A stretch of 64,000 bases of DNA from the NCBI GenBank assembly GCA_027449865.1, contig DAIDKV010000164.1, positions 1-64,000 of the forward strand. The letters are read 5' to 3'. The stretch comes from Planctomycetales bacterium (GTDB lineage Bacteria; Planctomycetota; Planctomycetia; Isosphaerales; Isosphaeraceae). Numbering within the stretch: the first letter of the stretch is position 1; each line of letters opens with the position of its first letter. The position numbers and the translations under genes were made by a program. The notes below the pieces were generated by a model. The model did not search any database, had not been told where the DNA came from, and worked only from the letters and a program-made list of their open reading frames with translations. Of the stretch, positions 1,989-8,850 are shown in pieces.

Positions 1989-3656
1989 ATGAGCATCCAT
2001 TGGAAATGGTTGAGAGCCGTTCGAGCCCCGCGTGGAACGCCACGGAGTGCCATGAGGCGCCGGATCCTGGCGATCGGGCTGATCGCCGTGATCGCGATTC
2101 TTGAGACCGGATGCCAGTCGGGTGTGGGATGTGGCAGTTGCCGGTCGTGCGGCTGGTGGCAGCGGACGCGGTCTCGAATCTTCAATCGTCCCTCGCGGGC
2201 GTATGGGTCGCCGGTCATCGGTGATTCCGCCGTGGAGATTTCGGGCCCCGCGACGGTGGTCTCGCCATCGACGACAGGCGGTCCGCTGAGCGCTCCTGTG
2301 GGTGGCGGCTCGATTCCCTCGACGGTTGTCCCGCCCGCCGGCGGCTCGCCACCGATCGATCTTGAGCCCGCGCCGACGGCCCGACCGGGCACCAGTTCGA
2401 CCTTAGGATCAGGCGCCGGTCGGACCAGCTACATCGGGCGGCCGTCAACAACCCGGACGGCCGTTCGACTCGACTCGGGCCTCACCCCTGATCGGGCTTC
2501 GCTTCACCGCTCGAAGTCCGGACTCTCGTCCGATGGTCCGCCCACGCCGGCTGAGGCCGACGAGGACAATCCACTGGATCACCTACCGCCGCTGGATCTT
2601 CCCGGCGAGGTGACGAAGTCGGCGGACACCCCTCCGGCCACTCGGCCGGAGGGCGGGTTCCCCGCTCGAACGGTCGAGGGCGGAACCGCCACCGCGGAGG
2701 CCGACCTGCCCGAGAAAGGCGTTCATCTTCTCGCCGCCGAGCCGGTTTCCGACTCCGAACCGGCGCCGGCGCCCGCTCCGGGTGGTCGAAACGGAATGGC
2801 TCGTTTCACTTCGGTCGATCCGAAGCTGGCCGGTGGAAGCGTTCCATCTTCCGAGGGACTCGCCTGGCTCGCCGAGAAGGGCTATCGGACCATCCTCGAT
2901 CTCCGACCCTCCAATGAGGTCTCGCCCGCCTTCCTCGCCGAGGTCGCCGCGCGAGGCCTGCGCTATCTCGCCATGCCCGTCGATCTCGGCCGAATGGACG
3001 CCGACCGCCTCGCTCGCTTCCAGTTCGAACTGGCCGCGCCCGAGGCTCGTCCGCTGTATTTCTTCGATACCGATGGTTCCCGGTCCGGCGCTCTCTGGTA
3101 TATCCGCCGGGTCTCCGTCGACCACGTCGACCCGCAGATCGCCCGCCGCGAGGCTGAGGAAATCGGTCTCAAAACCCCGGCCGCCTGGAACGCCGTGACG
3201 GCCTTTCTCGACTCGATCCAGGCCGTGCAAGCTCATCCAGCCCGAACCGCAGCCGACGTCCCGTCCACGCCTCCTCCCGCTCCGGCGAACTCTCTCGAAC
3301 CCAGCGAGAAGCCGGTCCACCGCGACGCGGCCGGATCCGGCACCAACCAGATCTCCGCGCCACCCGTCCTCGCCTCCGCATCTTCGATCGAGGTGTCGGG
3401 ATCGATCTACCCCCCGGCGTTGCCCCCGTCGTACACCTCTAACAATCTCCCGCCGATTGGAACGCCGCTTCCGGCCCTTCCCGCGACGAGCCGGCCCAAC
3501 TGGCGCCCGATCGCCGTAATGCTCCTGACCGGTCTTAGCCTTCCTCTCGTTTACTGGTCTCGCTCGGTCTTTCCCGAGGCGATCGCCCGGGTCCGGGCCA
3601 GTCTGCCGGCACCGGGGCCTCAACCCAGATCTCTTCCGCCCGGGTCGGGTGAGTGA
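1989..3656 (+). CDS. Lipoprotein with a dual-specificity-phosphatase-like (DUF442-type) domain lacking the catalytic Cys
   Basis: The start is set by AAAGGAGAG six bases before the ATG; the open frame extends upstream but without a ribosome site. The 555-residue product has a hydrophobic N-terminal segment ending in a lipobox-like LETGC at about residues 38-42, so it is probably a lipid-anchored envelope protein. A long Ser/Pro/Gly-rich linker follows. Residues about 270-400 resemble the small tyrosine-phosphatase-like fold of the DUF442 family (RFTSVDPKLAGG, then YRTILDLRPS). The P-loop reads FFDTDGSRSGALW: Gly363, Arg365 and Ser366 are kept, but the expected Cys is Asp360. A hydrophobic segment near the C-terminus may be a second membrane anchor. 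The 3' end overlaps the convergent pseudouridine synthase gene by 122 bases. Confidence 0.65.
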   Translation: MSIHWKWLRAVRAPRGTPRSAMRRRILAIGLIAVIAILETGCQSGVGCGSCRSCGWWQRTRSRIFNRPSRAYGSPVIGDSAVEISGPATVVSPSTTGGPLSAPVGGGSIPSTVVPPAGGSPPIDLEPAPTARPGTSSTLGSGAGRTSYIGRPSTTRTAVRLDSGLTPDRASLHRSKSGLSSDGPPTPAEADEDNPLDHLPPLDLPGEVTKSADTPPATRPEGGFPARTVEGGTATAEADLPEKGVHLLAAEPVSDSEPAPAPAPGGRNGMARFTSVDPKLAGGSVPSSEGLAWLAEKGYRTILDLRPSNEVSPAFLAEVAARGLRYLAMPVDLGRMDADRLARFQFELAAPEARPLYFFDTDGSRSGALWYIRRVSVDHVDPQIARREAEEIGLKTPAAWNAVTAFLDSIQAVQAHPARTAADVPSTPPPAPANSLEPSEKPVHRDAAGSGTNQISAPPVLASASSIEVSGSIYPPALPPSYTSNNLPPIGTPLPALPATSRPNWRPIAVMLLTGLSLPLVYWSRSVFPEAIARVRASLPAPGPQPRSLPPGSGE

Positions 3657-6031: not shown

Positions 6032-6922
6032 ATGGCGACCTCGACTCTTGCTGAACGGCCACGCCTGCAGATTTGCTGGCCGCCGGTCCTCTGGATCGGC
6101 GCTCTCCACGTACTGGCGCTGCTGGCGTTCGTCCCCTCGTTCTTCTCGTGGTCCGGCCTGGCCGTGTGCCTCGTTTTGCACTGGGTCACGGGTGGGATTG
6201 GCATCTGCCTGACGTACCACCGCCTTTTGACTCACCGGAGCTTCGCGCTTCGACCCCGGTGGCTGGAGTACGTCCTGACGATCATCGGCACGACGGCGTC
6301 GGAGGGCGGTGCCATCGGCTGGGTCGCCGATCATCGCCGCCATCATGCAAACTCGGACGATGAGGAAGATACCCACTCCCCGCTCCGTGGTTTCCTCTGG
6401 GCTCACATGGCCTGGTGGATGTTCATGAAGGGGGATAATGAGCACAATCCCGAGTATTACAAGCGATGGGCTCCCGACCTTTACAAGGATCCGGTCCATC
6501 GATTCCTGGAGAAGACGCATCTCGTCTATCCGCTTCTGCTCTTCGCGGCGCTCTACGCGGTGGGTGGGATGAGCTGGCTGGTCTGGGGCGGGTTTGTCCG
6601 GACGGTCTTCGTGCTTCACTCGACCTGGCTGGTGAACTCCGCGAGCCACATCTGGGGCTATCGTTCGCATGTCACCCGCGATCGGTCGACGAATCTCTGG
6701 TGGGTCGCTCTTCTGACTTATGGCGAGGGCTGGCACAACAATCACCACGCCTACCAGACCTCGGCCCGACATGGCCTGAACTGGTGGGAGATCGACCTGA
6801 CCTACATCACCATCTCCGTGATGAAGGCGCTCGGGATCGCGTACAACATCAAGGCGGTTCGGCCACGAATGAACCCGGTACCCGCAATGACAGTTCCGGT
6901 GGCCGGTCCCGGCTCCGAGTGA
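6032..6922 (+). CDS. Delta-9 acyl (stearoyl-CoA-type) fatty acid desaturase
   Basis: Membrane di-iron desaturase that puts a cis double bond in acyl chains and so tunes membrane fluidity. The 296 residues carry all three histidine boxes of the acyl-CoA delta-9 family: HRLLTH at 63-68, HRRHH at 101-105 and HNNHH at 235-239. Hydrophobic segments lie near residues 18-55, 77-95 and 165-205, in the usual arrangement of two pairs. EGWHNNHHA and GYRSHVTRD are also typical. The length matches bacterial homologues without a fused cytochrome b5. It lies alone between truD (divergent) and the intron-containing tRNA. Confidence 0.93.
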   Translation: MATSTLAERPRLQICWPPVLWIGALHVLALLAFVPSFFSWSGLAVCLVLHWVTGGIGICLTYHRLLTHRSFALRPRWLEYVLTIIGTTASEGGAIGWVADHRRHHANSDDEEDTHSPLRGFLWAHMAWWMFMKGDNEHNPEYYKRWAPDLYKDPVHRFLEKTHLVYPLLLFAALYAVGGMSWLVWGGFVRTVFVLHSTWLVNSASHIWGYRSHVTRDRSTNLWWVALLTYGEGWHNNHHAYQTSARHGLNWWEIDLTYITISVMKALGIAYNIKAVRPRMNPVPAMTVPVAGPGSE

Positions 6923-6991: not shown

Positions 6992-7354
6992 GCGGCCCTA
7001 GCTCAACGGCAGAGCAGGGGACTCATCGAAAGAAAAGGTGGCACCGGAGGGTAACCTCCGACTGCGAACCGGGTGAATTGCGGGAAACCTAAACCCCAAT
7101 GGGGCATGGCAATCCGCAGCCGAGCCTGGCCGGGTCTGGGTAGCCAGGAAGGTTCAGAGACTAGCGGGGTGAGTCCCAACAATAATCTCCGCCGCGAGCG
7201 CCCGGCCTCCTCGTCAAGCGTCCTGGTCATCCCTGGAACAGTTCCAGGGATTCCATCGGGACGCCGAACGAGGAGGATGAGATAGTCCAAGCCCCGTGGA
7301 AACGCGGGGGCCCCTTGAATCCCTTGGTTGCAGGTTCGAATCCTGCGGGCCGCA
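6992..7354 (+). tRNA. tRNA with anticodon CAU (elongator Met or Ile2), interrupted by a group I intron
   Basis: Exons 6992-7026 and 7318-7354 join to a 72-base cloverleaf. The acceptor stem is GCGGCCC/GGGCCGC, the D stem GCTC/GAGC, the anticodon stem GGGGA/TCCCT around loop CTCATAA, and the T arm GCAGG-TTCGAAT-CCTGC. The discriminator is A; CCA is not encoded. The anticodon CAT is at 7024-7026 and the intron follows directly after its last base. The G1-C72 pair argues against an initiator tRNA. Elongator Met and lysidine-modified Ile2 cannot be told apart by eye. Confidence 0.92.
7027..7317 (+). ncRNA. Group I self-splicing intron (IC3-like) in tRNA(CAU)
   Basis: 291-base intron with no ORF. 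The core matches the Azoarcus/Anabaena tRNA introns: GAAACCTAA (7084-7092), GCATGGCAA and CCGAGCC in the P4-P6 region, GAGACTAG (7157-7164) as the 5' side of P7 and ATAGTCC (7282-7288) as its 3' side. The 5' exon ends in CAU and a GUG in the nearby GGTGGC can act as the internal guide (U·G at the splice site). The intron ends in the expected G (7317). A long nested hairpin at 7206-7276 enlarges the P8 region. Self-splicing is expected from the family and is not shown here. Confidence 0.92.
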
Positions 7355-7419
7355 TTCCACTCGCTTTTCGGAGTCGCGCCGGTGCCCCGGCCGGGGATCT
7401 CCACCGGCGCGGGCCTGAC

Positions 7420-8850
7420 GTGGATTCCCATTCCGACCCTTTCGCTACCGGCTTCGAGAAGGATCTCCGTGACGCAGGACGGCACAACGACCAGGGTGCC
7501 AGGTTGGCCGTCCGCGGGGATCTCTCCGGAGCCATCCTCGAATTCCGAGAAGCGCTTCGACTCGTTCCCGATAGCCCCCAGGCCAGAACCAACCTCGCGA
7601 ATGCTCTGACTGAGGCCGGTACCCTCGCCCGCGATCCCGCCTTGTTGGCCGAGGCTATTCAGCAACAGCAGGCCGCGGCGAAGATCGCTCCCGACGATCC
7701 TCGTATTCGCCGCAACCTTGGCAACACGCTCGCCCGTGCCTTTTTCCTCGACGAGGCCGCTGCGGCCTATCGGGCTGCGATTTCTTTGGACCCTTCGTGC
7801 ATCTCGGCGCGTGTCGACCTTGGGACGGCGATCGCGGCCCTCGGTCAATATTCCGAGGCTCTTGCGATCCTCGACGAGGCCCTCCAGCTCCATCCAGGCG
7901 ACGTCGAGGCCCGGTTCGCTCGGGGCGGGGTGAAGATGGCGATCGGTGATCCGGTCGGAGCCTGGCCTGACCTGGAAGCGCGGTTCGATCGGCCGGAAGG
8001 GTATGCCCGACGAATCCCGGGTGTCCCCATCTGGAAGGGCGAGCCGTGCTCGGGCGCCCTGGTCATCCACGGAGCGATGGAGGGCGTCGGCGACCTGATC
8101 CAGGGTTTACGCTTCGTCCCCGAGATCCGCAGTCGCGTCGGCTCGGTTGTCTTGCTGTGCCGCCCGGATCTCGTCCGCTTGGTCTCTCAGGTGTCGGGCC
8201 TGGATCGGATCGTGACGGATCTCTCCACGTTGCCTCCTGTCGAAAAACAGGTTGCGCCGATGAGCCTGCCGGCGATTCTGGGCGTGGGACCCAACGAAAT
8301 GAGAGGTGAAACGGCGTACCTGTCAGGCCAAACCGATGTCGTCACGCGCCTCCGTTCGATCGCGGCGACCCTCCCCGGCCTCAAGGTGGGCATCGTCTGG
8401 CAGGGGAATCCCTCGCATCCCAACGATCCATATCGATCTTTCCCGATCACCGCCATGGAACCTCTGGCTGCCGTGCCGGGTGTCCAGTGGGTGGCCCTCC
8501 AGTGGGGCCAGGCGATCCAGCAGGCCGATTCCGCACCGTTCCCGGTCCGATCGAGGGGCCTGACTGATCCCGGCAGCGACTGGATGGACACAGCGAATGC
8601 TGTCAGCGTGCTCGACCTCGTGATCGGGCCCGATTCGGCCCTGATCCACCTGGCCGGAGCGCTGGGCATGCCGGCATGGCTCGCGCTCTCCACGCCCCCC
8701 GAGTGGCGATGGACCGTTTCCTGCGAAACAACACCCTGGTACCATTCCGTTCGACTCTTCCGACAACCCAAACCCGGCGATTGGCGGTCCGTCTTCGAGC
8801 AGATGGCCGCGGCGCTTGCCAGGCTCCAACCACGCTGGTCGTCGGCTTGA
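7420..8850 (+). CDS. TPR protein with C-terminal glycosyltransferase-9-like domain
   Basis: The open frame begins inside the tRNA 3' exon, so the true start must lie downstream. The GTG at 7420 (VDSHSDPF) is the first sensible choice but has no strong ribosome site. About 476 residues. The N-terminal half has tetratricopeptide repeats (for example GDLSGAILEFREALRLVPDS and QYSEALAILDEALQLHPGD). The C-terminal half resembles the heptosyltransferase-like domain often fused to TPRs (LVIHGAMEGVGDLIQGLRF; GIVWQGNPSHPND; VIGPDSALIHLAGALGMP). It probably acts in glycosylation together with the membrane glycosyltransferases downstream. The substrate is unknown. Confidence 0.75.
   Translation: MDSHSDPFATGFEKDLRDAGRHNDQGARLAVRGDLSGAILEFREALRLVPDSPQARTNLANALTEAGTLARDPALLAEAIQQQQAAAKIAPDDPRIRRNLGNTLARAFFLDEAAAAYRAAISLDPSCISARVDLGTAIAALGQYSEALAILDEALQLHPGDVEARFARGGVKMAIGDPVGAWPDLEARFDRPEGYARRIPGVPIWKGEPCSGALVIHGAMEGVGDLIQGLRFVPEIRSRVGSVVLLCRPDLVRLVSQVSGLDRIVTDLSTLPPVEKQVAPMSLPAILGVGPNEMRGETAYLSGQTDVVTRLRSIAATLPGLKVGIVWQGNPSHPNDPYRSFPITAMEPLAAVPGVQWVALQWGQAIQQADSAPFPVRSRGLTDPGSDWMDTANAVSVLDLVIGPDSALIHLAGALGMPAWLALSTPPEWRWTVSCETTPWYHSVRLFRQPKPGDWRSVFEQMAAALARLQPRWSSA

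Follow-up and report, generated by a model that had tools for sequence, protein, structure and literature searches.

A tRNA-Ile2 gene split by a putatively self-splicing group I intron throughout the planctomycete family Isosphaeraceae

The window, i.e. the whole analysed stretch of 64,000 nucleotides, belongs to a genome of the Isosphaeraceae, the family which includes Singulisphaera acidiphila (contig NC_019892.1). At positions 6992-7354 on the + strand it carries a 72-nt tRNA(CAU) gene, interrupted after anticodon base 36 by a group I intron of 291 nt. We estimate at about 93% the probability that this is a tRNA-Ile2 gene whose intron, predicted to self-splice, is old and has been inherited vertically within the family. 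An entire planctomycete family would then depend, for an essential tRNA, on a single gene that is split by an intron. Splicing should be essential there, and the locus would be a clear example of an intron passed on vertically over a long time with no homing gene.

Structure of the split gene and its intron

The exons and intron elements described here lie on the + strand. The 5' exon (6992-7026, 35 nt) ends with anticodon base U36, and the same tRNA half occurs in 40 further genomes of the family. The intron occupies 7027-7317 and ends with a G, followed by a 3' exon of 37 nt (7318-7354) which starts with A37 and does not encode the CCA end. On the raw window, ARAGORN detects no tRNA at 6992-7354 and reports only a distant tRNA-Ala, and with introns allowed it again misses the gene and returns only a spurious tRNA-Pro elsewhere. 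From the joined exons (6992-7026 and 7318-7354) the same program recovers a complete 72-nt tRNA(cat) with fully paired arms. A preliminary description made from the sequence had already proposed a tRNA(CAU) split by a 291-base group I intron and folding only without it. Its coordinates are exact to the base, and the Infernal/Rfam search that it suggested as a check gave an RF00028 match at 7014-7309 with 75.4 bits (cut-off 50) and an E value of 2.5e-17, far above chance. This match covers model positions 1-253 and thus spans the whole group I core. RF00028 is the sole Rfam family reaching the gathering threshold in the window, and the intron is the single group I intron found by the Rfam search of the whole genome, a draft of 278 contigs with an estimated contamination of 3.3% in which this locus is syntenic with that of relatives. 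Directly downstream lies a TPR-repeat protein gene (7315-8847), whose longest ORF runs over the tRNA 3' exon and whose true start must therefore be further down.

The intron has the group I hallmarks of a U.G pair at the 5' splice site and a G as last base, and it contains the P3/P7 pseudoknot core together with P4-P6, P8 and P9. Helix pairing was counted over 40 aligned complete introns of the Isosphaeraceae. The internal guide sequence GUGG (7038-7041) forms P1 with U33-U36 of the 5' exon (7023-7026), placing U36.G at the splice site; 157 of 160 cells are paired and GUG is kept in 40/40 introns. P2 (7045-7060) is a hairpin with a GNRA loop (GUAA), in which all 240 cells are paired, five of the six pairs show double changes and the loop is recognised as GNRA in 38/40. 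P3 (7069-7075 with 7199-7205; 279/280 cells paired) forms the core pseudoknot with P7 (7159-7163 with 7283-7287), the guanosine-binding helix, which is paired in 200/200 cells and invariant in all 40 introns. P4 (7079-7083 with 7114-7118) encloses P5 (7088-7089 with 7108-7109), both nearly invariant, as well as P5a (7094-7097 with 7101-7104; 144/160 paired, four covarying pairs). In P6 (7119-7121 with 7151-7153) and P6a (7125-7130 with 7143-7148) every cell is paired, P6a accounting for 240/240 with four covarying pairs. Between the 5' strand of P7 and the 3' strand of P3 lies a P7.1 hairpin (7164-7192), paired in 240/240 cells within the family. P8 (7206-7213 with 7269-7276) has an extra hairpin in its loop and is paired in 287 of 316 cells, with four covarying pairs. 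P9 (7292-7298 with 7303-7309; 266/280) is capped by a GAAA loop in 40/40 introns. The adjoining P9.0 (7288-7291 with 7314-7317) was misplaced by the plain alignment and its covariation therefore comes from direct counting, which gives A-U in 30 and G-C in 10 of the 40 introns with zero exceptions. Double changes are seen in P2, P5a, P6a, P8 and P9. A homing endonuclease gene would not fit beside the core within the 291 nt of the intron.

In the proposed pathway, the intron of the transcript would fold around the P3/P7 pseudoknot, with P1 holding the CAU through the guide GUG and with probable contacts of the L2 and L9 GNRA loops. A guanosine would then cut after U36, and the freed U36 would attack after the terminal G (7317). 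The joined tRNA would be matured by addition of CCA and by TilS turning C34 into lysidine, allowing AUA to be read.

Identity of the tRNA

Judged from its sequence, the split tRNA is tRNA-Ile2, the decoder of AUA, and not a tRNA-Met. The preliminary description had asked for these two to be told apart. Among annotated genes, the joined tRNA best matches tRNA-Ile of E. coli genomes, and its CAU anticodon sits in an Ile-type body, with a variable region (UUGGU) and an anticodon stem (GGGGA/UCCCU) that are Ile2-like. The lysidine synthetase TilS is present in the genome (155 bits), where two other CAU tRNAs were found, an initiator-like and a Met-like one. AUA codons are few but in use, making up 9 of 748 Ile codons in the 29 long ORFs of the window. 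Taken together, the Ile matches, TilS, the separate Met-type CAU tRNAs and the AUA usage identify the split gene as that of the AUA-decoding tRNA-Ile2. A second Ile2 gene was not found in this genome among the tool matches and tRNA lists, and the intact elongator-type CAU genes detected in 12 genomes of the family all have a Met-type anticodon stem. An intact second tRNA(CAU) of the Ile2 type, which the preliminary description held would, together with RNA in the unspliced form only, speak against its proposal, was likewise found in none of the 45 family genomes surveyed.

An elongator or initiator tRNA-Met at this locus is thus very improbable. The label Met given by ARAGORN is its default for any CAU anticodon, and it stands against the tRNA-Ile matches, the Ile2-like stem and variable region and the presence of separate initiator-like and Met-like CAU tRNAs; moreover, AUA would otherwise be without a decoder among the tRNAs found. 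The Met identity was rejected on these grounds. Even less probable is a dead tRNA whose intron no longer splices while another gene supplies the function. The division of the assembly into 278 contigs speaks for this reading, but no other Ile2 gene was found in the genome, AUA is in use, TilS is present and the helices are maintained with compensating changes across the family. As the tRNA-Ile2 reading is kept, splicing of this tRNA should be essential.

Distribution and descent of the intron

An RF00028 match is present in 43 of the 45 family genomes. A survey of related genomes, also proposed in the preliminary description, located the intron in tRNA-Ile2 at position 36/37 in 41/45, one copy being cut by a contig end. 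In the remaining four genomes the Ile2 3' half was not found, making them not scorable; one of these (G400) is 96% complete. Intact Ile2 genes occur in 0/45 family genomes and in 89 of 353 other genomes of the class. Any group I intron was found in 12/392 genomes of a phylum-wide draw and in 84/398 of a class-wide draw. In five loci of other planctomycetes with an intact Ile2 gene (L148, L127, L102, L183, L206), the desaturase neighbour described below is missing, so none of them offers a syntenic empty site. In the rest of the class only one split tRNA-Ile2 (36/37) was found (L248); it is without P7.1 and not close kin, and the age of the insertion can therefore not be extended beyond the family.

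Directly upstream of the split tRNA lies a fatty acid desaturase gene (6032-6922, + strand; Pfam PF00487, E 4.8e-17). Of 29 loci read in the family, 24 have its WHNNHH motif just upstream of the tRNA; in the other five, the neighbour is absent within the stretch read. The intron and desaturase trees have 9 of 21 splits in common, with a random mean of 0.23 and a maximum of 3 in 1000 shuffles. A tree was built from 172 core columns of 115 tRNA introns, with the P7.1 stretch left out; in it, the Isosphaeraceae tRNA-Ile introns form one clade (100/100). This single clade, the missing empty site, the shared neighbour and the partly matching trees point to one gain before the radiation of the Isosphaeraceae followed by vertical descent as the simplest account. 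Local exchange may have occurred, since five loci are without the desaturase and only 9/21 splits agree.

The preliminary description had left open horizontal transfer or an old presence. Old presence fits the data, and no recent horizontal transfer needs to be assumed for the Isosphaeraceae. The intron as a recently acquired mobile element, derived from interbacterial transfer of the Azoarcus-type tRNA-Ile intron, would agree with the tRNA and the insertion site, which are the same as in the Azoarcus type, and the related P7.1-bearing introns in tRNA-Ile2 of beta- and gammaproteobacteria do imply a transfer between phyla at some time. However, the introns of the family group in a single clade, with the Azoarcus type placed elsewhere (AU p 0.044), an empty site was found in no family genome, the neighbour gene is conserved with partly matching trees and the intron has no room for a homing endonuclease. 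Recent transfer is thus very improbable, only slightly less so than a tRNA-Met, and recent transfer from the Azoarcus lineage was rejected based on the separate clades, the AU test, the shared desaturase neighbour and the absence of empty sites. Under the preferred account of an old insertion, the intron would have entered before the radiation of the family and been inherited vertically since.

Other introns were observed along the way. In Planctomycetia, group I introns occur in at least six tRNA species; their positions were assigned by script, and for some of the Arg and Asn genes more than one register fits. Some Isosphaeraceae carry a further group I intron, which interrupts the anticodon of tRNA-Lys(UUU) after U34 (L074, L208, L214, L217, L219, L221, L224, L225); the tRNA-Lys(UUU) of the window's genome (L002) is intact. 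In planctomycetes, a verrucomicrobium and proteobacteria, a different intron lineage occupies another site of tRNA-Ile2, between U33 and the anticodon (L092, L114, L122, L154, L176, L193, L250, L255, L257-L260, L266, L269, L270, L273, L276, L277, L279, L312). Other planctomycete introns interrupt tRNA-Asn GUU at 35/36 (L036, L240, L246), tRNA-Arg CCU (L041, L042, L272), tRNA-Arg UCU (L032, L033) and, as in cyanobacteria, tRNA-Leu UAA (L247, L253, L254, L256, L263, L268, L274, L275, L278, L281, L283) and tRNA-fMet (L037, L252, L264, L267). One family genome has a tRNA-Leu(UAA) intron at 33/34 where 34/35 is the usual site (L226), which may be contamination. Group I introns were also seen in the 23S rRNA of other planctomycetes (L035, L039, L040, L043), the inserts of L035 and L039 being long enough for a homing endonuclease gene. 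The window's genome further contains two clusters of odd, low-scoring second tRNA copies, as on phage or plasmid DNA, one for Lys, Gly, Pro and Asn (L044, G000:C50:23154-23670) and one for Cys, His and Arg (L054, G000:C19:34554-34899). Since the usual tRNA finders miss split genes, the tRNA sets of Planctomycetia genomes are likely under-annotated.

The P7.1 clade and comparison with known systems

The window intron falls in a larger clade of P7.1-bearing introns (support 96/94). Besides the Isosphaeraceae tRNA-Ile introns, this clade comprises introns in tRNA-Ile2 (gammaproteobacteria and some betaproteobacteria), in tRNA-Asn (planctomycetes and one betaproteobacterium) and, in two planctomycete cases, in tRNA-Arg(CCU). 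The P7.1 hairpin has six pairs and is kept, with covariation, across the clade. In 61 of the 62 clade introns the first four pairs are complementary, with eight different stems in use; as a control, stem arms exchanged between introns found a partner in 51 of 255 trials. No P7.1-like hairpin was found in the Azoarcus-type, Leu, Lys and Ile-33/34 introns examined. P7.1 is not part of the usual IC3 plan and marks other subgroups. The IC3 membership put forward in the preliminary description is therefore doubtful, given this hairpin and the different tRNA-intron clade; RF00028 itself does not separate group I subgroups.

The closest comparison is the Azoarcus pre-tRNA-Ile(CAU) intron (IC3), tRNA-Ile(CAU) group I introns being known since Azoarcus. 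It has in common with the window intron the tRNA, position 36/37, the guide GUG, the core and the GNRA loops L2 and L9. The insertion site and guide match those of L299, which we take to be Azoarcus-type by the published ribozyme sequence, and of L303, in agreement with the earlier placement of the insertion after CAU at the Azoarcus position. Of the claim that three core words recur in the Azoarcus and Anabaena introns, the first part stands, as L299 has GAAACCTAA, GAGACTAG and ATAGTCC, but the Nostoc tRNA-Leu intron (L227) has only GAAACCTAA, without GAGACTAG and ATAGTCC. L299 differs in its length of 205 nt, against 291 nt here, in its clade and in the stretch that joins P7 to P3, which is short and has no P7.1. 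The Azoarcus-type tRNA-Ile introns, despite sharing the site, form a separate clade (100/100), and a tree that unites them with the group of the window intron is worse by 46 log units (p-AU 0.044, a mild rejection). The close tie to the Azoarcus intron once proposed is thus reduced to the site. A Burkholderiaceae locus (L180, near position 3250) has a tRNA-Ile 3' exon preceded by the 3' portion of an Azoarcus-type intron, with the 5' half absent, apparently a broken copy.

The odds seem about even that the P7.1-bearing tRNA introns are a distinct non-IC3 subgroup that radiated among tRNA-Ile2, tRNA-Asn and tRNA-Arg of Planctomycetota and Pseudomonadota, arrived independently at the tRNA-Ile2 nucleotide that the Azoarcus type occupies, and in the Isosphaeraceae went to fixation in an essential gene across the family. 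With two distantly related intron lineages at one nucleotide of one tRNA, site choice by the guide sequence becomes directly testable.

Introns from Comamonadaceae/Burkholderiales (L100, L101, L166, L172, L293) share the site, P7.1 and clade of the window intron. The tRNAscan-SE 2.0 paper (PMC8450103) reports Ile2 genes missing because of group I introns, with Acidovorax and Burkholderia named; the passage on them contains neither sequences nor a subgroup and mentions no planctomycete. The five introns above are likely the same as those Acidovorax/Burkholderia introns. The cyanobacterial tRNA-Leu(UAA) and tRNA-fMet introns (PMC4033280, PMC3984707) are likewise group I introns of the anticodon loop, and the tRNA-Leu intron is described there as old and vertically kept. 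They differ in their tRNAs, in their positions (34/35 and 33/34) and in being without P7.1. Reviews place bacterial tRNA group I introns in cyanobacteria, alpha- and betaproteobacteria (PMC4033280, PMC3984707), and an earlier report of planctomycete tRNA introns was not found in the freely accessible literature searched. The kind of intron itself is known; new here are its host phylum, its family-wide fixation and the P7.1 clade.
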